A DNA stretch of 33,296 nt from Acidobacteriota bacterium. Lineage in GTDB: Bacteria > Acidobacteriota > Vicinamibacteria > Vicinamibacterales > Fen-181. Where the stretch lies: contig JADGOB010000032.1 in assembly GCA_017883185.1 (NCBI GenBank), positions 1-33,296 of the forward strand, in the 5' to 3' direction. Shown here piece after piece: positions 1-33,216 of the stretch (the first letter of the stretch is position 1; each line of letters begins with the position of its first letter). The position numbers were made by a program, and so were the translations under genes. The notes under the pieces were generated by a model. The model did not search any database. It saw only the letters and a program-made list of their open reading frames with translations, and was not told where the DNA came from.

Positions 1-661
1 CATACGGCTTTCGCGGCCCGAAGTCGCCGCGCTCACCGCCGGGGTTGCTCGCGGGCCTCTCGCCCACCGCCTCATCTCCACCGCCGCCCGCTGGGCCCCG
101 CGCCTCGTCCCGTCCGCCCGGGGGCATATCTGCACCGCCATCACCGGGTCCGCGCACCTCGTCGCGACCGACCGGGCCGCCGGCCGGGTCGGTCGCGGGC
201 CTGAAGGGCTGCGGCGCGTCGGCTCCAGCCCCCGGCATGTCGTTACGGCCACGGGCCGCGTCATCGCCGCCCTGCGGCCGGTCGCCGTAGTCCATCTGCG
301 GGCCGCCCGCGGCTTCTCGCGCCAGGTTCGCCGCCTTCTTGTCGCGGCGCTTGCGGGCCTGGAACGTCTCCTTCTTGAACTTCTCGCGCGGGTCCTTGTG
401 CTCGCCACCTGGCCGCCAGTCGCGCGCGCGGCGCTCCTTCAGCACCGCGTCGCGCACCGCCGTCTCTCCTTCAGAACGGGCGCCCCGTGATTCTTCGGGC
501 GACTCCCACACGCGACCGCGCGCGAACCACTTCAGCTCGGCGCCCGGGTTCTTCGTCTTCAACTGGTTCAGCGTCGGCAACAGCTCCTCGCGCTCCGCCG
601 CGCGAAACGCTGTCGGCTGCCCGTCGATGATGATCGTCCAGAAGGTGAAACGGGGTGGCAT
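1..661 (-). CDS. Unknown charged, Gly/Pro-rich protein (3' end beyond the left edge)
   Basis: The frame is open from an ATG at 661 to the left edge, giving 220 codons without a stop. The N-terminal ~60 residues look folded (start MPPRFTFWTIIIDGQPTAFR, later LKWFARGRVWESPEES). A stretch rich in Lys, Arg and Glu follows (ERRARDWRPGGEHKDPREKFKK), then a long low-complexity tail of Gly, Pro, Ala, Asp and Arg. No signal peptide or membrane segment is visible. It starts 9 bases after the stop of the sigma-54 activator on the same strand, with an AAGGA ribosome site at the junction, so the two are probably co-transcribed. I recall similar conserved hypothetical proteins in Acidobacteriota, but I know no function. 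The tail could bind RNA, DNA or protein through charge; that is only a guess from composition. Confidence 0.75.
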   Translation of the reverse strand, partial: MPPRFTFWTIIIDGQPTAFRAAEREELLPTLNQLKTKNPGAELKWFARGRVWESPEESRGARSEGETAVRDAVLKERRARDWRPGGEHKDPREKFKKETFQARKRRDKKAANLAREAAGGPQMDYGDRPQGGDDAARGRNDMPGAGADAPQPFRPATDPAGGPVGRDEVRGPGDGGADMPPGGRDEARGPAGGGGDEAVGERPASNPGGERGDFGPRKPY

Positions 662-670
662 AGGGGTCCT

Positions 671-2059
671 TCAATTCTTCGTCATCCGCTTCAGCTTCTC
701 TACCAGCGTCGTGCGCTTCAGGTTCAGCAACTGCGCCGCCCGGCCCTTGTTGCCGCTCGTCCGCTCCAGCGACTGGCGAATCAGCTCGCGCTCGACGTTC
801 CCGACGTACTCGTGGAAATCGATCCCGTCCTCGGGCAGCGAAAACACTCCAGAGGATGGCGCGTCCGAAAGCTCCTGCAGCTCCGGCGGAAGATCCGCGA
901 GCTCGATTTGCGTCCGCCCCGCGCTCAGCGCCACCGCGCGCTCGAGCGCGTTCTCGAGCTGCCGCACGTTCCCGGGCCACTCGTAGGCCATCAGCCGTCT
1001 CATCGCCTGCTGCGACACGGTCATCGTCGGTCTCGGAGGGCCGAGTTCCCGGCAAAACCGATCGAGGAAGTGCTGCACGAGCAGCGGGATATCTTCCCTG
1101 CGATCGCGCAGCGGCGGCAGCCGCACCGGGATGACGTTCAGCCGGTAGTAGAGATCTTCGCGGAACTTCCCCGCGGCGACGAGCTTCGTGAGGTCGCTGT
1201 TGGTCGCCGCGATCACCCGCACGTCCACCTTGATCGTCCGCGAATCGCCGACGCGCTCGACCTCGCGCTCCTGCAGCGTGCGTAGCAGCTTCATCTGCAA
1301 CGGCCCGCTCATGGTCCCGACCTCGTCGAGGAGGAGCGTGCCCTTGTGCGCCTGCTCGAACCGGCCCACGCGATTGCCCACCGCGCCCGTGAACGCGCCC
1401 CGCACGTGGCCGAACAACTCCGCCTCGAGCAGCGTCTCGGGAATCGCGCTGCAGTTGATCGCCACGAACTGGTTCCCGCGCCGCGGGCTGTTGTGATGAA
1501 TCGCGCGCGCCACGAGCTCCTTGCCGGTGCCCGTCTCGCCCGAGACGAGAATCGTGCTGTTGGTCACCGACACGGTCTCGAGCAACTGAAAGAGATCGCG
1601 CATCGGGCGGGACCGGCCCACGATCCCCTCGAAGCTGTAGCGCCGCTCGAGCTGCGACCGGAGGTAGGCGTTCTCCGATTTCAATCGCCGCTGTTCGAGC
1701 GCCGAGTCGAGCACGTGCAGCAGTTCGTCGAACTGGAACGGCTTGGTGACGAAGTCGGTCGCGCCGCGCTTGATCGCTGCCACCGCGTCCTTCACCGTCC
1801 CGTAGCCCGTCACCACGATGCCGATAATATCGGGATAGCGGGTGACTGCAGCCTCGAGAACCTTGCCGCCGTCGATCCCCGGCAGGCGCAGATCCGTAAC
1901 CACGATGTCAAAAGCGAACTCGGCAAGACGGTCGATCGCCTCTTCGCCGTTGGCCGCCTGGACGACATCGTAGCCCTGATCCGCGAGCCGCTCGGCCACC
2001 ACTTCCCTGAGCGCCGCCTCGTCCTCGACAATCAACAGATGTTTAGTCGTATCAGCCAT
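671..2059 (-). CDS. NtrC-family sigma-54-dependent response regulator
   Basis: This 462-residue transcription activator should be switched on by phosphorylation and should open sigma-54 promoters. Domains in order: receiver (about 5-120) with the acidic pair in VEDE, phospho-acceptor Asp56 in VVTDLRLP and the KPF lysine near 106; AAA+ sigma-54 interaction domain (about 143-375) with Walker A GETGTGKE (174-181), sigma-54 contact loop GAFTGA (221-226) and Walker B LLLDE (242-246); and a C-terminal Fis-type helix-turn-helix (KGRAAQLLNLKRTTLVEKLK). All key residues are present, so it should be active. It is divergent from the small DHp-like gene at 2188, and the gene at 661 follows it directly. 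Plausible targets are the two dyads and the -24/-12 promoter at 2554-2750. The cognate kinase is not certain; the nearest is the hybrid kinase at 3767-5302. Confidence 0.95.
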   Translation of the reverse strand: MADTTKHLLIVEDEAALREVVAERLADQGYDVVQAANGEEAIDRLAEFAFDIVVTDLRLPGIDGGKVLEAAVTRYPDIIGIVVTGYGTVKDAVAAIKRGATDFVTKPFQFDELLHVLDSALEQRRLKSENAYLRSQLERRYSFEGIVGRSRPMRDLFQLLETVSVTNSTILVSGETGTGKELVARAIHHNSPRRGNQFVAINCSAIPETLLEAELFGHVRGAFTGAVGNRVGRFEQAHKGTLLLDEVGTMSGPLQMKLLRTLQEREVERVGDSRTIKVDVRVIAATNSDLTKLVAAGKFREDLYYRLNVIPVRLPPLRDRREDIPLLVQHFLDRFCRELGPPRPTMTVSQQAMRRLMAYEWPGNVRQLENALERAVALSAGRTQIELADLPPELQELSDAPSSGVFSLPEDGIDFHEYVGNVERELIRQSLERTSGNKGRAAQLLNLKRTTLVEKLKRMTKN

Positions 2060-2187
2060 TTAGTTGAGCGCCAACATATTGACACAGCTCGGCAAGCTGC
2101 GAAAGCGGATTATTGACTGGTCTCCTACAGTCCCGGAGTGGCTGTTCCGATACAAAAGGCGAACAGAGTGCGGCGTATCGCGGAAGG

Positions 2188-2421
2188 ATGCCGGTGTCAG
2201 AATTTGTTAACCATCACAACAACAAAGACTTGAGCGAGTTGTTCCATCGCCTGAACAACGAGCTTGGCATCATCCTTTCGCACGCGGAGTTGCTCGAAGC
2301 CAAGTGCGAACAGGACAAGAACCGCTCCAGGGCCGCCCAGGTGGTGGCCGCCGCGCTCGAAGCGATGGGAACAGCCAGGCAGATTCGGTCCCAGGTAGAC
2401 GACCTGTCGCTCGTGAAGTAA
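2188..2421 (+). CDS. Small stand-alone DHp/HisKA-like phosphotransfer protein
   Basis: This 77-residue protein contains FHRLNNELGIILSHAELLEA, close to the H-box helix of histidine kinases of the HxLNN type, with the candidate phospho-histidine at His20. A second amphipathic helix follows (RAAQVVAAALEAMGTARQIR), as in a DHp hairpin. No ATPase domain follows: the gene stops and the next 425 bases are non-coding. I chose the ATG at 2188 because GGAAGG lies directly before it; an in-frame ATG at 2113 would add 25 residues of unlikely sequence. It is divergent from the sigma-54 activator. It could be a histidine phosphotransfer protein, a kinase-dimer decoy or a phosphatase-like partner of the activator. 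Assignment to the DHp fold is by motif only. Confidence 0.7.
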   Translation: MPVSEFVNHHNNKDLSELFHRLNNELGIILSHAELLEAKCEQDKNRSRAAQVVAAALEAMGTARQIRSQVDDLSLVK

Positions 2422-2553: not shown

Positions 2554-2569
2554 TGTCAGAAAACTGGCA
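2554..2569. promoter_or_regulatory. Candidate activator-binding dyad 1
   Basis: TGTCAGAAAACTGGCA is an imperfect dyad (TGTCA, six bases, TGGCA). Sigma-54 activators usually bind 16-17 bp dyads of this kind 80-200 bases upstream of the start site; this one is about 200 bases upstream of the predicted start. Its pairing with dyad 2, exactly 33 bases downstream, strengthens the case. Confidence 0.45.
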
Positions 2570-2586
2570 CCATTTTCGACCCGGTC

Positions 2587-2602
2587 TGTCACAAATTTGA
2601 CG
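2587..2602. promoter_or_regulatory. Candidate activator-binding dyad 2
   Basis: TGTCACAAATTTGACG has the inner dyad GTCA, six bases, TGAC. It repeats the TGTCA half-site of dyad 1 exactly 33 bases further on, about three helical turns, so both sites would face the same side of the DNA. It lies about 165 bases upstream of the predicted sigma-54 start site. Confidence 0.45.
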
Positions 2603-2734
2603 AGCCGGCCCGCTTCCGCGCACGACCCCGCAACGTGACGAGCCGCAGTAAGCTCGTTCTAAATAACTGCAAAATAGGGCCTTGGTTCACTCTGGAGACC
2701 TTTTGTCTCCTCCTCGGGCAGGGGTGTTCCATTC

Positions 2735-2750
2735 TGGCACTGCCATTGCG
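2735..2750 (+). promoter_or_regulatory. Sigma-54 (-24/-12) promoter upstream of the sigma factor gene
   Basis: TGGCACTGCCATTGCG matches the consensus TGGCAC, five bases, TTGC, with the exact GG-to-GC spacing. Transcription would start near 2761, giving an ~86-base leader to the ATG at 2847. The neighbouring NtrC-type activator and the two dyads upstream support function. Confidence 0.7.
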
Positions 2751-2846
2751 AATGGCTGGGGCTGTCGGCAGCAGGTGGCTGACAGCTGGCAGCCAGCATC
2801 GGGTGGCCGAATCCAGCACCCAGGCAGATAACGTCGAGGAGATCCC

Positions 2847-3941
2847 ATGCAGTCCCAACCGATTTCCGTCCCCGAAAGCCAGCGCGTCGTTGCCGGGCTT
2901 CCATTCGTTGAAGCCCTCGCGCGGCGCCTCGCGGCGTCGATGCCGCATTCGATCGACCTCGGCGATCTGGTGCAGGACGGCGTGCTGGGCCTGATCGACG
3001 CGGCGCGTCGCTTCGACGAGGACCGCGGCATCAAGTTCGAGACGTTTGCCGAGCGGCGCGTTCGCGGGGCGATGATCGACGCGCTGCGGCGCGAGGCATG
3101 GCCGCGCGGCGTCCGCCGCGTGCGCCGCGAACTGGAAGCCGCTCGCGAAACGCTGCGGCGCGATCTGGGTCACGAGCCGTCGCTGGCGGACCTGGCGGCG
3201 AAGGTCGGGTCGGACGAGAAGCGCCTCGGCCGGACGATCCTCCGCATCACCACGATCGAATCGACGTCGCCGCTCTCCTCGGGCGGTCACATGGACGAGA
3301 CGTCACTGCCGGCGGCGCTGGTGCCGTCCGAGCCCGAGTCGCCAGACTCGGCCTACGAGCGCAGCGAAGTGAAGGAGCGGATCCGCAACGCGATGGCCGC
3401 GCTGCCCGAACGCGAGCGGCGCCTGGTCAGCCTGTACTACTTCGGCGAGGTGACGATGAAGCAGATTGGCGCGGAGCTGGGCGTGAACGAGTCGCGGGTG
3501 TCGCAACTGCACGCGCGGGCGATTCAGCGGCTGCGCGCGGTGTTCGAGCCCTCTCGCGCGGCAGCGCGGCCGACGGGCGCCCCGGTTCACTCAACGCCGG
3601 TCATCACCGCCCTCACGCCACGCGTGCCGATGGCGGCGCGGTCGGTGCTGCCGTTCGCCCGCCCGGTCATGGCGAAGGCGACGCTGCCGCGCGTGATGGA
3701 GCAGGCTGGATTGAAGTCCGGCTCCACCGTCGTCATGCCGATGCACGCCGGCGCGAACGTCCTGCCCTACCCGAGGACCTCTCGCGCGGACCTCAGCAAG
3801 TCGGCAAGCCTGAACGGCTTGGCCAGCCAGCGGCAGCCGGTTTCCTCGAAGAAGCGTTCAGCCTCGGTGCCGACGACGTCGCCGGTGACGAAGATGACGC
3901 GGCGCGCGAGCGACGGTTTCGTTGCGGCAATCGCGCGGTAG
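2847..3941 (+). CDS. FliA/WhiG-like sigma-70 family factor with long C-terminal tail
   Basis: This is a sigma factor of the sigma-28 type (regions 2, 3 and 4, no region 1). Region 2 (about 15-90) has IDLGDLVQDGVLGLIDAARRFD and FETFAERRVRGAMIDALRR; region 3 (about 95-145) has the ARETLRRDLGHEPSLADLA type of sequence; region 4 (about 180-235) has LPERERRLVSLYYFGEVTMK and a helix-turn-helix in ELGVNESRVSQLHARAIQRL. GAGGAGA precedes the ATG. FliA-type factors usually have about 240-260 residues; this one has 364. The extra ~120 residues are Ala/Pro/Arg/Ser-rich, and the last ~58 codons run antisense through the receiver domain of the convergent kinase (overlap 3767-3941). The tail may be real or may reflect loss of an earlier stop. 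No flagellar gene is in view, so a motility role is not supported. The sigma-54-type promoter upstream suggests control by the activator at 671-2059. Confidence 0.9.
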   Translation: MQSQPISVPESQRVVAGLPFVEALARRLAASMPHSIDLGDLVQDGVLGLIDAARRFDEDRGIKFETFAERRVRGAMIDALRREAWPRGVRRVRRELEAARETLRRDLGHEPSLADLAAKVGSDEKRLGRTILRITTIESTSPLSSGGHMDETSLPAALVPSEPESPDSAYERSEVKERIRNAMAALPERERRLVSLYYFGEVTMKQIGAELGVNESRVSQLHARAIQRLRAVFEPSRAAARPTGAPVHSTPVITALTPRVPMAARSVLPFARPVMAKATLPRVMEQAGLKSGSTVVMPMHAGANVLPYPRTSRADLSKSASLNGLASQRQPVSSKKRSASVPTTSPVTKMTRRASDGFVAAIAR

Positions 3942-5302
3942 AACTCCATGCCGTCGACGCGCGGCATCTTCAGGTCACACACGATCAAGTCGTAGGTCCT
4001 GGCGTCGACGCGCGCCAGGGCCTCCTCTCCATCACCCGCCCGATCGACGACGAACCCGGCGTCGGCCAGCCCGTCGCCAACCGCCTGGGCCAGCGCCGGT
4101 TCATCCTCCACCAGCAGCACCGATGCGCCCTTCAGGAGGTTTTGCGCGATGACCTCCGGCGGAGGCTGCGGCGCGCGCACTGCGCTCGCGTTGCCCGTCG
4201 GCAGCTCGACGAAGAACGACGCGCCGTTCGCTTCGTCGGGCGAACCGACCCAGATTCGCCCGCCGTGCTCCTCGACGATCGCGTAGGCGACGGTCAGGCC
4301 CAGCCCGGTACCCTTGCCCACTTCCTTGGTCGTGTAGAACGGGTCGAAAATCTTCGTCCGCGCCTCTTCCGGTATTCCCGGCCCGTCGTCGTTCACCTCG
4401 AGGACGACCGAATCGTTCGTGCCGTTGTGCCAGGTGCGGACGACGAGCGTCCCGCGGCCGTGGGCCGAGAGCATCGCCTGTTCGGCGTTGATGACGAGAT
4501 TGAGGAGCACCTGCTGCAGTTGGTGCGGGTCGGCGAACACCAGTGGCAGGCCTGCCGCGAGCGCGGAGATGACGCTGATGTTCGTCACCCGCTGTTCGTA
4601 CGATCGCAGCGCCAGCGTTTCCTCGACGATGCGGTTGATGTCCACCATCGCGCGCGTGGTGTGGCGCTTGCGCGCGAAGGTGAGCAGGTTGCGAACGATG
4701 CGCGCGGAGCGCTCGGCCTCCGACAGGATGACGTCAAGGCCCCGGCGCGTCTGATCGTCCGCCTGCCGGGACGACAGCCGCTCGGCCCAGGTGAGGATGG
4801 TGGCGAGCGGGTTGTTCAACTCGTGCGCGATGCCCGAGACCGTCTGGCCGAGCGAGGCCATCTTCTCCGCCTGGAGAAGTTGGTGATACAGGTCGCGCGT
4901 CTGATCGTCGAGCTTCTTGCGGTCGCTGACGTCGCGAACGAGCGCCTCGAGGCGGACGCTTCCGTCGGGACGGGTGTCGGCGTGGCCGGTGATCTCGATC
5001 CAGATCGGCGTGAGATCCGCGCGGCGGACGCGCACCAGGAAGTCGGTGATCGAGCCATCGTGCCGGAGGCGGTCGAGCAGGTTCGGCCGGGTCAGCGGAT
5101 CGATGAAGCGCTCGAGATCGAAGGGGAGCAGCGTGTGCTCGTCGGTTTCGATCGGGTAACCGAAGATCAGCCGGAGCCGGACATTGGCGGCCACGGTGCG
5201 GTCGCCGTGGTCTGACAGGATCCCGATGAAGGCCCCTACCTGGATGTGGTCGAACAACTGCGCGAACATCTGGTCGCGCGAATCGGCGGATGGATTGTCC
5301 AC
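3767..5302 (-). CDS. PAS-domain hybrid histidine kinase with C-terminal receiver
   Basis: This soluble 511-residue sensor has a PAS-like domain (about 12-130, ending in the usual VRDVSDRKKLD), a HisKA domain with phospho-His160 in GIAHELNNPLATI, a HATPase domain (N-box Asn272 in LVINAEQAM, G1 DDGPGIPEE, G2 GKGTGLGL) and a receiver (about 393-510) with Asp443 in VCDLKMPRVDG and the distal Lys in LAKPF. No transmembrane segment is visible, so the signal is probably cytoplasmic. The first codon is GTG at 5302; an in-frame ATG eleven codons in (MFAQLF) is an alternative. The gene is convergent with the sigma factor and overlaps it by 175 bases. A receiver after the kinase core usually implies onward transfer through a histidine phosphotransfer protein; the small protein at 2188 is the local candidate. 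Confidence 0.95.
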   Translation of the reverse strand: MDNPSADSRDQMFAQLFDHIQVGAFIGILSDHGDRTVAANVRLRLIFGYPIETDEHTLLPFDLERFIDPLTRPNLLDRLRHDGSITDFLVRVRRADLTPIWIEITGHADTRPDGSVRLEALVRDVSDRKKLDDQTRDLYHQLLQAEKMASLGQTVSGIAHELNNPLATILTWAERLSSRQADDQTRRGLDVILSEAERSARIVRNLLTFARKRHTTRAMVDINRIVEETLALRSYEQRVTNISVISALAAGLPLVFADPHQLQQVLLNLVINAEQAMLSAHGRGTLVVRTWHNGTNDSVVLEVNDDGPGIPEEARTKIFDPFYTTKEVGKGTGLGLTVAYAIVEEHGGRIWVGSPDEANGASFFVELPTGNASAVRAPQPPPEVIAQNLLKGASVLLVEDEPALAQAVGDGLADAGFVVDRAGDGEEALARVDARTYDLIVCDLKMPRVDGMEFYRAIAATKPSLARRVIFVTGDVVGTEAERFFEETGCRWLAKPFRLADLLRSAREVLG

Positions 5303-18433: not shown

Positions 18434-18826
18434 GTGATCCTTGGTATCGGCTTCGATCTCGTTGACGTCGCCCGCTTCTCGCGGATTGCCGCCCGGCACG
18501 ACCCCGGCTTCCTCGAAAGCTTGTTTCCCCCCGCCGAGATTGTCTGGTGCGGGCGACGGCGACGGCGTGACGAGCACCTCGCGGCGCGATTTGCCGCGCG
18601 CGAGGCGGTGCTGAAAGCGCTGGGCACCGGCCTGGTCGGCCTGATGTCGTGGAAGGATATCCAGGTGGTCCCCGGGGAGGTGCCTGGCGCGGCACGCATG
18701 GTCCTCGGCGGAGCGGTGGGCGCGGAAGCGGAGCGACAGGGCGTGCAGCGGGTCCACCTGGCGCTGACGACGACCAGGGAACTGGCGGCAGCCGTCGTCA
18801 TCCTCGAGTGCGGCGCGGGTTCGTAA
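18434..18826 (+). CDS. acpS: Holo-[acyl-carrier-protein] synthase
   Basis: This 130-residue enzyme transfers phosphopantetheine from CoA to the serine of an acyl carrier protein. The motifs are present: GIGFDLVDVARF with metal-binding Asp8 at the N-terminus, and FAAREAVLKALGTG in the middle, with the usual short length. The start is GTG at 18434; I see no closer ATG. An ACP gene begins 85 bases downstream, and a Kbl-like enzyme follows that. acpS is usually a single housekeeping gene near pdxJ or alr, so its place here next to a discrete ACP suggests a shared pathway, although it may be the cell's only copy and serve all ACPs. Confidence 0.93.
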   Translation: MILGIGFDLVDVARFSRIAARHDPGFLESLFPPAEIVWCGRRRRRDEHLAARFAAREAVLKALGTGLVGLMSWKDIQVVPGEVPGAARMVLGGAVGAEAERQGVQRVHLALTTTRELAAAVVILECGAGS

Positions 18827-18828
18827 AC

Positions 18829-18898
18829 GTGGCGCGGGCGGAAACTCTCGTGTGGCGCGGGCCGGAAACTCTCATGTGGCGCGGGCTTCCAGGCCCGC
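18829..18898. repeat. Direct repeats and REP-like palindrome, GTGGCGCGGGC type
   Basis: GTGGCGCGGGC occurs three times (from 18829, 18852 and 18876), the first two followed by GGAAACTCTC, giving a 23-24 base period. The third copy continues into a hairpin with arms GCGGGC and GCCCGC (18881-18898). The hairpin ends 14 bases before the GTG of the ACP gene. The 22562-22584 element is the same kind read from the other strand. Confidence 0.8.
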
Positions 18899-18911
18899 GA
18901 GGAGATTGCGC

Positions 18912-19157
18912 GTGAAACAGACCATCCTCGACTACATCAAGAACGAGTACATCGACGAGGACGAGGCCGACGAGGTCGAGCTCGACGAGAACACCACGCT
19001 CATCAGCAGCGGCATCGTGGACAGTTTCAGCATGGTGAGCCTGAAGCGGTTTCTCGAGAAGAAATACAGCATCTCGATCCCCGACGACCAGGCAACACCC
19101 GAGGCGTTCAACACGGTCGCGAGCATCATCCAGTTGGTCGAGAAGTTCAAGAAGTAG
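18912..19157 (+). CDS. Discrete acyl carrier protein
   Basis: The 81-residue acidic protein has the ACP four-helix pattern: an acidic helix-one region rich in Asp/Glu, then SSGIVDSFSMVSLKRFLEKK with Ser38 (in the VDSFS version of the DSL motif) as the phosphopantetheine site, then ISIPDDQATPEAFNTVASI. The start is GTG at 18912 with GGAG about eight bases before it; upstream in-frame codons lie in a repeat. It differs from a housekeeping AcpP (DSF rather than DSL, and a Lys-rich C-terminus, LVEKFKK). It is 15 bases from the alpha-oxoamine synthase gene and downstream of acpS. Known bacterial sphingolipid clusters pair an ACP with serine palmitoyltransferase, so this ACP may deliver the acyl group to the next enzyme. 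Confidence 0.9.
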   Translation: MKQTILDYIKNEYIDEDEADEVELDENTTLISSGIVDSFSMVSLKRFLEKKYSISIPDDQATPEAFNTVASIIQLVEKFKK

Positions 19158-19172
19158 GCGAAGGGGACTCAT

Positions 19173-20420
<1,248 letters not shown>

Positions 20421-31864: not shown

Positions 31865-32020
31865 AGATGCCTCCAGGGATTCACCGCCGATGATGGGAAT
31901 CGCCGACATGGCCGCCGAGCGCTTGGCAAACACGGTGTCGTATCCAGCCTCGGGCCGCGAGGGGTAACCGGTGCGGCGCAGTCTAGCACAACAGAATGGC
32001 CCGTGGGCTCCGTTCGCGGC

Positions 32021-32026
32021 TATACT
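32021..32026 (+). promoter_or_regulatory. Possible -10 element, near-leaderless start
   Basis: TATACT lies eight bases before the ATG at 32035, so transcription from it would give an almost leaderless mRNA. No Shine-Dalgarno sequence is visible before this ATG, which is consistent. I see no convincing -35 box. Confidence 0.3.
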
Positions 32027-32034
32027 GCGGCCCG

Positions 32035-33216
32035 ATGACTACCGATCCCTTGCGGTACCTCGGCGCGGAACTCCAGGCGTTGCGCGAACAGGGCAGCGCG
32101 CTCGACATCCGGATCCTCGGCGGCGCGCAGGCCGCCACGGCCACCATCGACGGCCGCAGCGTCGTCAACCTCTCGTCCAACAACTACCTGGGCCTGACGA
32201 CCCATCCGAGGCTGAAGCAGCGGGCGCTCGAGGCCATCGAGCGATACGGGGTGGGAACCGGGTCGGTCCGGCCGATCGCCGGCACCATGGACCTGCACGA
32301 GGAGCTCGAGCAGCGCCTGGCGGCCTTCAAGCAGACCGAGGCCGTGGTGGTGTTCCAGAGCGGGTTCACCGCGAACGCCGGGACGGTGTCGTCGGTGCTG
32401 GGCCGCGAGGACGTCGTGGTGTCGGACGAGCTGAACCACGCCAGCATCATCGACGGCTGCCGGCTGAGCCGCGCCACGATCAAGGTGTTTCCGCACAAGG
32501 ACGTCGGCGCCGCGCGGAAGATCCTCCGCGAGTTGCCCGCCTCGCAGCGGAAACTCCTCATCACCGACGGCGTCTTCAGCATGGACGGCGACCTCGGACC
32601 GGTGGCCGCGCTGTGCGAGGTGGCCGAGGAATACGGCGCCATCATGATGGTGGACGACGCCCACGCGAGCGGCGTGTTCGGCAGGAACGGCCGGGGCACA
32701 GTGGATCACTTCGGCATGCACGGCCGCGTGCACATCCAGGTGGGGACGCTCTCGAAGGCGATCGGCACGCTCGGCGGCTACGTCGCCGGCAGCAGGACGC
32801 TCATCGACTTCCTCCGCCAGCGCGCCCGCCCGTTCATCTTCTCGACGTCGCCCCCGCCGGCCGTGGTGGCCGCCTCGATCGCCGCGGTGGACGTGCTGAT
32901 GGAGGAACCCGAGATCATCGAGCGGCTGTGGGAGAACACCCGCTTCTTCAAGGCGGGCCTGCACGCGATCGGCTTCAACACCGGCGCCAGCGACGGCCCG
33001 ATCACGCCGGTCATCGTGGGCGAATCGGCGGCTGCCCTGCACTTCTCGGCGCGGCTCTTCGAGGAGGGCGTGTTCGCGCAGGGGATGGCGTTTCCGATCG
33101 TGCCGCGTGGCAAGGCTCGCCTCCGGACGATCGTCACCGCCGCGCACACCACGGACGAACTGCAGTACGCGCTCGACACGCTCAAGCGGGTCGGAATTGA
33201 ACTGGGGATCGTGTAG
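32035..33216 (+). CDS. Second PLP-dependent alpha-oxoamine synthase (Kbl/BioF-like)
   Basis: The 393-residue protein has the length of glycine C-acetyltransferase or BioF. Motifs: VVNLSSNNYLGLTTHPRL, the GTGSVRPIAGTMDLHEELE loop, LNHASIIDGCRLS, ITDGVFSMDGDLGP, VDDAHASGVFG and the PLP lysine Lys241 in VGTLSKAIGTLGG. GFNTGASDGPITPVIVGE and FPIVPRGKARLRTIV near the end fit Kbl-type enzymes. It lacks the ~50-residue leader of the paralogue at 19173. No bio or tdh gene is adjacent; it is divergent from acetyl-CoA synthetase, so acetyl-CoA is a reasonable acyl donor and 2-amino-3-ketobutyrate a reasonable product. BioF activity cannot be excluded. Confidence 0.9.
   Translation: MTTDPLRYLGAELQALREQGSALDIRILGGAQAATATIDGRSVVNLSSNNYLGLTTHPRLKQRALEAIERYGVGTGSVRPIAGTMDLHEELEQRLAAFKQTEAVVVFQSGFTANAGTVSSVLGREDVVVSDELNHASIIDGCRLSRATIKVFPHKDVGAARKILRELPASQRKLLITDGVFSMDGDLGPVAALCEVAEEYGAIMMVDDAHASGVFGRNGRGTVDHFGMHGRVHIQVGTLSKAIGTLGGYVAGSRTLIDFLRQRARPFIFSTSPPPAVVAASIAAVDVLMEEPEIIERLWENTRFFKAGLHAIGFNTGASDGPITPVIVGESAAALHFSARLFEEGVFAQGMAFPIVPRGKARLRTIVTAAHTTDELQYALDTLKRVGIELGIV

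Follow-up and report, generated by a model that had tools for sequence, protein, structure and literature searches.

In flagellar systems, fliA is known to be under sigma-54 control, as with FlrA/RpoN in Vibrio and FleQ/RpoN2 in Xanthomonas (PMC3930126, PMC8657755). The locus described in this report resembles this flagellar sigma-54/sigma-28 hierarchy in that a sigma-54 activator is predicted to turn on a FliA-family sigma factor, but it differs in having no flagellar genes, in that its activator is a response regulator with a receiver domain and has a hybrid kinase encoded close by, and in its likely output, type IV pili. Related arrangements are known for other sigma factors. HrpL, for example, belongs to the ECF class. 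Its gene hrpL is driven by an enhancer-binding protein (HrpS), IHF and sigma-54 (RpoN), as proposed here for another sigma gene, but HrpL is of a different sigma class and serves type III secretion (PMC8657755). In PilS-PilR systems, including PilRX of Xanthomonas, the NtrC-type regulator PilR and sigma-54 act on type IV pilus genes by controlling pilA (PMC8657755), whereas the circuit proposed here has a further sigma factor as an intermediate step, and its site is at pilO, not pilA. WhiG control of type IV pili has been proposed in Rubrobacter with mapped starts, and that system shares with ours a FliA/WhiG-family sigma factor, flagellar-type promoters in a type IV pilus cluster and a non-flagellar role (PMC8325347). 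There, control is exerted by the anti-sigma factor RsiG and c-di-GMP, while here we find a sigma-54 promoter and a small protein without the RsiG motif. The SigJ-SigC-SigF system of Nostoc is likewise a hierarchical sigma cascade, leading to motile hormogonia (PMC6495340), but has no sigma-54 step and uses different sigma factors. Searching open-licence papers for work from this order or phylum on sigma factors, on sigma-54 or on the regulation of type IV pili, we found nothing relevant, and the locus combines known parts in an arrangement that we did not find described in that literature.

The main finding of this study, to which we assign a probability of about 0.8, is that the locus encodes a conserved regulatory module in which an NtrC-type regulator and sigma-54 would switch on a FliA/WhiG-type sigma factor, which in turn would feed back on its own operon and act on pilO. 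The window, i.e., the whole stretch of DNA analysed, spans 33,296 nucleotides from an Acidobacteriota bacterium (Vicinamibacterales, Fen-181; GCA_017883185.1, JADGOB010000032.1, positions 1-33,296, forward strand), and its relevant features are listed in the table. Using the sigma protein as query in 60 genomes of the order, we found orthologs in about 55 of them, 59-99% identical; paralogs, at about 40%, are clearly set apart. Across the phylum, 297 sampled genomes gave 28 matches at E <= 1e-50, every one of them within Vicinamibacterales. The 53 orthologous loci retrieved for comparison show, in nearly all cases, the same order: a conserved unknown gene, the NtrC-type regulator gene (divergent), a small gene, the sigma gene and the hybrid kinase gene (convergent). 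This arrangement is kept order-wide, with the kinase linked in most loci; in a few, such as those of family f5, the regulator or the kinase is located elsewhere. The conserved unknown gene lies beside the regulator gene (window 2-661, minus strand), and its product, conserved over its N-terminal 60-100 residues or so and variable in its tail, had no match in a Pfam search.

Features of the predicted regulatory module (positions in the window)
Feature	Position	Strand	Basis or remark
NtrC-type response regulator, proposed enhancer-binding activator	671..2059	-	Pfam Response_reg, Sigma54_activat, HTH_8
Third dyad CGCCA-ACATAT-TGACA, proposed autoregulatory site	2069..2084	.	About 10 bp upstream of activator ATG
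FliA/WhiG-type promoter TACAG-N15-TCCGATAC, proposed sigma autoactivation	2126..2153	+	Reads into small gene and sigma gene
77-aa protein, stand-alone DHp-like, proposed phosphotransfer or accessory protein	2188..2421	+	Conserved, invariant H20
Distal enhancer dyad TGTCA-GAAAAC-TGGCA	2554..2569	.	One mismatch to perfect dyad; conservation
Proximal enhancer dyad TGTCA-CAAATT-TGACG	2587..2602	.	One mismatch to perfect dyad; conservation
IHF-like site AAATAGGGCCTTG	2672..2684	+	Between enhancer and promoter; 7/9 specified positions of WATCARNNNNTTR
Sigma-54 -24/-12 promoter TGGCAC-TGCCA-TTGC = TGGCACTGCCATTGC	2735..2749	+	Exact match; conservation
FliA/WhiG-family sigma factor	2847..3941	+	TIGR02479 FliA_WhiG, 196.6 bits (cut-off 189.6)
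Hybrid histidine kinase, proposed sensor of module	3767..5302	-	Pfam HisKA, HATPase_c, receiver

The initial annotation of this DNA had proposed that an NtrC-type activator drives an alternative sigma factor from a sigma-54 promoter, on the strength of a TGGCAC-N5-TTGC box ahead of a sigma gene and two upstream TGTCA-N6 dyads. The box is indeed exact; no other exact match occurs in the window, and nothing else upstream of the sigma gene scores as high. It is followed by the sigma ATG at 2847; with the -12 GC at 2748-2749, the start site is predicted near 2761. Both dyads are present and spaced exactly 33 bp, a separation of about three helical turns, and NtrC-type activators usually have dyad pairs placed 80-200 bp ahead of a -24/-12 box. 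On their own, matches in a single genome are unconvincing, because the window's genome has 13 exact -24/-12 matches and, as a control, 12 matches to the same pattern reversed, and because imperfect dyads are frequent; we therefore tested conservation. Of 54 loci, 51 have TGGYAY-N5-TTGC at most 180 bp from the sigma start (0.04 in shuffled spacers) and the other three have near matches; the GG and GC of the box are invariant among the 53 aligned loci. Occurrences of GTCA-N6-TGAC (7 or 8 of 8 positions) are concentrated at about -180 and -148 from the -24 box, and a pair separated by 29-34 bp is found in 38/53 loci versus 0.005 in shuffles; eight of 54 loci are without one clear dyad at the expected position. 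The enhancer-promoter distance is near constant (SD about 5 bp), and the leader varies more (SD about 27 bp), with 29 to 158 bp between box and sigma start codon. We accept the elements as real because of the strict box and dyad pair frequencies relative to shuffled sequence. That they are chance matches, with a conservation that reflects close relatedness only, has next to no probability: the counts in a single genome do equal the control, but the orthologous spacers have otherwise largely diverged across some 15 families while the elements and their geometry persist, which refutes the chance reading. An rpoN gene is present in the window's genome. Lack of conservation of box and dyads in close relatives, or a genome lacking rpoN, had been named beforehand as grounds for refuting the cascade; neither was observed, and the comparison supports the proposed cascade well. 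Between genes, this genome has the tandem dyad nowhere else; a second tandem copy (C379) was discarded, as it lies inside a long ORF resembling a penicillin-binding protein and has no downstream -24/-12 box.

The comparison also brought to light elements that were new relative to the initial annotation, i.e., the IHF-like site, the third dyad, the gene for the 77-aa DHp-like protein and the FliA/WhiG-type promoter. Motif discovery by EM between enhancer and promoter yielded a 30-bp motif with a log-likelihood of 335, as against 111-119 when the sequence was shuffled. In most loci it lies near -78 relative to the -24 box, and its core reads WATCARNNNNTTR, the IHF consensus. Many orthologous loci have a dyad similar to the third one within a few base pairs of where the activator gene starts; this proximity to the regulator's own start codon ties the dyad motif to the NtrC-type regulator, which thus appears to control its own gene and would probably limit itself. 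The regulator has a receiver domain, a sigma-54 activator AAA+ domain and a Fis-type HTH. Its GAFTGA, previously described as intact, is present together with Walker motifs; among 50 orthologs GAFTGA and Walker A/B are invariant or nearly so, and Asp56 is invariant. In the hybrid kinase, the His and the receiver Asp are invariant in 41 orthologs, and the ATP-site motifs are invariant or nearly so. These features are consistent with a pathway in which the kinase would phosphorylate the regulator, possibly via the 77-aa protein; the regulator would bind both dyads, which lie in helical phase at about 200 and 166 bp ahead of the predicted start site; and, with the DNA between enhancer and promoter bent by IHF or a protein of that kind, the regulator would open the sigma-54 promoter, leading to synthesis of the sigma factor.

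The sigma factor itself had been called sigma-28-like. Its membership of the FliA/WhiG family is borne out by NCBIfam (TIGR02479), but it is not FliA itself (NF005413, 179.5 against a cut-off of 201), and in an alignment its DNA-contacting regions resemble WhiG. As previously noted, there are no flagellar genes at the locus, and the genome is without an FHIPEP match. No other FliA-type member was found in this genome, the next best match being 31% identical to the sigma factor; several flagellated relatives have a separate FliA-like paralog, about 41% identical to it, near FHIPEP. Its conserved core covers about residues 1-250, and the 3' end of its gene is antisense to the kinase gene. The sigma ORF shares 175 bp (3767-3941) with the convergent kinase gene, with the same read-through in several orthologs and an earlier stop in others.

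Promoters resembling the FliA/WhiG type (TAAA / GCCGATAA) are conserved ahead of the sigma factor's own operon and of pilO. A scan of own and relative genomes with the FliA consensus TAAA-N15-GCCGATAA gave few matches, around control level, and was abandoned. The form used in this order, with a CCGATA[CG] -10 and mostly a 16-nt spacer, emerged from scanning the orthologous loci. Written as TAMWG-N15/16-CCGATAS, it faces the small gene in 26/50 orthologous regions in its strict form (0.0 in shuffled sequence) and in 45/50 in a loose form (0.36 shuffled), and no site was found on the opposite strand of the 50 regions. Since the sigma factor is the sole FliA-type member found in the genome, self-activation is the simplest reading, and the sigma factor would thus transcribe its own operon in a positive feedback. 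The two-level response initially proposed is supported as far as the cascade is concerned, but with the third dyad, the sigma-type promoter and the pilO sites the circuit appears to have more than two linear levels.

Candidate targets of the sigma factor point to type IV pili. A scan of 15 genomes for TAMWG-N15/16-CCGATAS gave 45 sites versus 19 control sites, a modest excess, and the gene most often recurring downstream is pilO (seven genomes). PilO was found with a Pfam model in 51/60 genomes, 46 loci were examined and the pilO start could be placed in 33. A strict sigma-type promoter lies closely upstream of pilO in 15 of these 33 relatives (0.0 shuffled), in spacers that are largely unrelated, which makes type IV pilus assembly the likely output of the circuit. 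Eleven of 12 pil regions of 9-16 kb have exactly one sigma-type site, always between pilN and pilO; the site in the window's genome is one of the 11. In G009 (family f4), the sigma gene is present and there is no pilO site in the pil region examined; together with the poor -35 of the window genome's own site and with G013 (see below), this is what weighs most against the pilus output. A match upstream of a ferredoxin gene, common to G000 and G001, was dropped because the two genomes are too close to inform. Sites upstream of a similar fibronectin/Ig-like lipoprotein gene occur in two distant genomes, the window's own (L261, G000:C351:8946) and G055 (L244), which makes this lipoprotein a possible further target.

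How the two ends of the circuit are connected could be read differently. At the input end, the sigma-54 cascade could be real but its dyads bound by another regulator, with the NtrC-type protein acting elsewhere. A candidate exists, since in several relatives (L266, L278, L270 and L288) the sigma-type promoter is separated from the DHp-like gene by a small gene of the HTH_17 type (excisionase/BldC-like). We consider this quite improbable because the window's genus has no room for such a gene at this position yet retains the dyads, because a similar dyad is seen again where the NtrC-type gene starts, and because the layout is the one usual for the NtrC class. At the output end, the sigma factor might act in the cascade with type IV pili not as its main output, the pilO promoter being served by another sigma factor and the regulon being different. 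This is unlikely, but it carries more weight than the preceding alternative. It could account for G013 (L289), which has a good pilO promoter and in which the sigma ortholog was not found, although this pattern may also be due to a missing contig. It would also fit the site in the window's genome, which is weak (good -10 CCCGATAG, poor -35 TGATG), and the other sigma-type sites, which precede genes for a lytic transglycosylase (SLT), an M23 peptidase and a lipoprotein, in two genomes each, and a secretin. Against it, the promoters of pilO and of the sigma operon share one consensus, and the pilO promoter is found in genomes without flagellar FHIPEP. In addition, the DNA-contacting regions of the sigma factor resemble WhiG, and in Rubrobacter type IV pilus promoters are proposed to be under WhiG control (PMC8325347). 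We thus favour a sigma factor that, in many relatives, would transcribe from the promoter just upstream of pilO.

The role of the 77-aa protein could also be read differently. As a small helical hairpin encoded directly upstream of the sigma gene, it could regulate the sigma factor as an anti-sigma factor or cofactor, like RsiG for WhiG, instead of transferring phosphate. We find this doubtful, while giving it more credit than the two alternatives above. The predicted structure is a two-helix hairpin (pLDDT 82.6) that carries the conserved His. The invariant His lies within F-H-R-L-N-N-x-L-G, and the H-x-L-N-N-x-L box resembles HELNNPL of the locus kinase. DHp domains are among the best matches in a fold comparison with the PDB, none of which is significant (E > 0.4), and the RsiG c-di-GMP signature motif has no match in the small-protein set. 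A weak HisKA match was obtained for 7/30 members (best E 0.0013); the window's protein scores 15 bits, below the curated cut-off of 26.9, and a PDB sequence search with the family profile gave no significant match. The acidic residue following the His is mostly Arg in this family, which makes autokinase chemistry unlikely and also weakens the DHp reading. A phosphorelay through the 77-aa protein is plausible.

If the phosphorelay is included, four genes would form an order-wide module: a His-Asp-His-Asp relay via a stand-alone DHp protein would act through NtrC, IHF and sigma-54 on a self-locking WhiG-type sigma factor, and from there on pilus assembly from within pilMNOPQ. Such a module would parallel the sigma-54/sigma-28 hierarchy of flagella in a non-flagellar setting. 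We put forward this most complete version tentatively, at slightly less than even odds. The preferred circuit predicts how surface pili are controlled in a widespread, mostly uncultured soil order and names each DNA site involved. It also points to reuse of the sigma-54 to sigma-28 logic of flagella for another surface machine, as with WhiG in Rubrobacter. The predicted self-activation, if true, would make for a compact and directly testable switch.

Elsewhere in the window, a row of genes at 18434-20420 resembles holo-ACP synthase, acyl carrier protein and an alpha-oxoamine synthase-like gene, and a second synthase-like gene lies at 31996-33216; by resemblance, these genes might be involved in sphingolipid-type synthesis.
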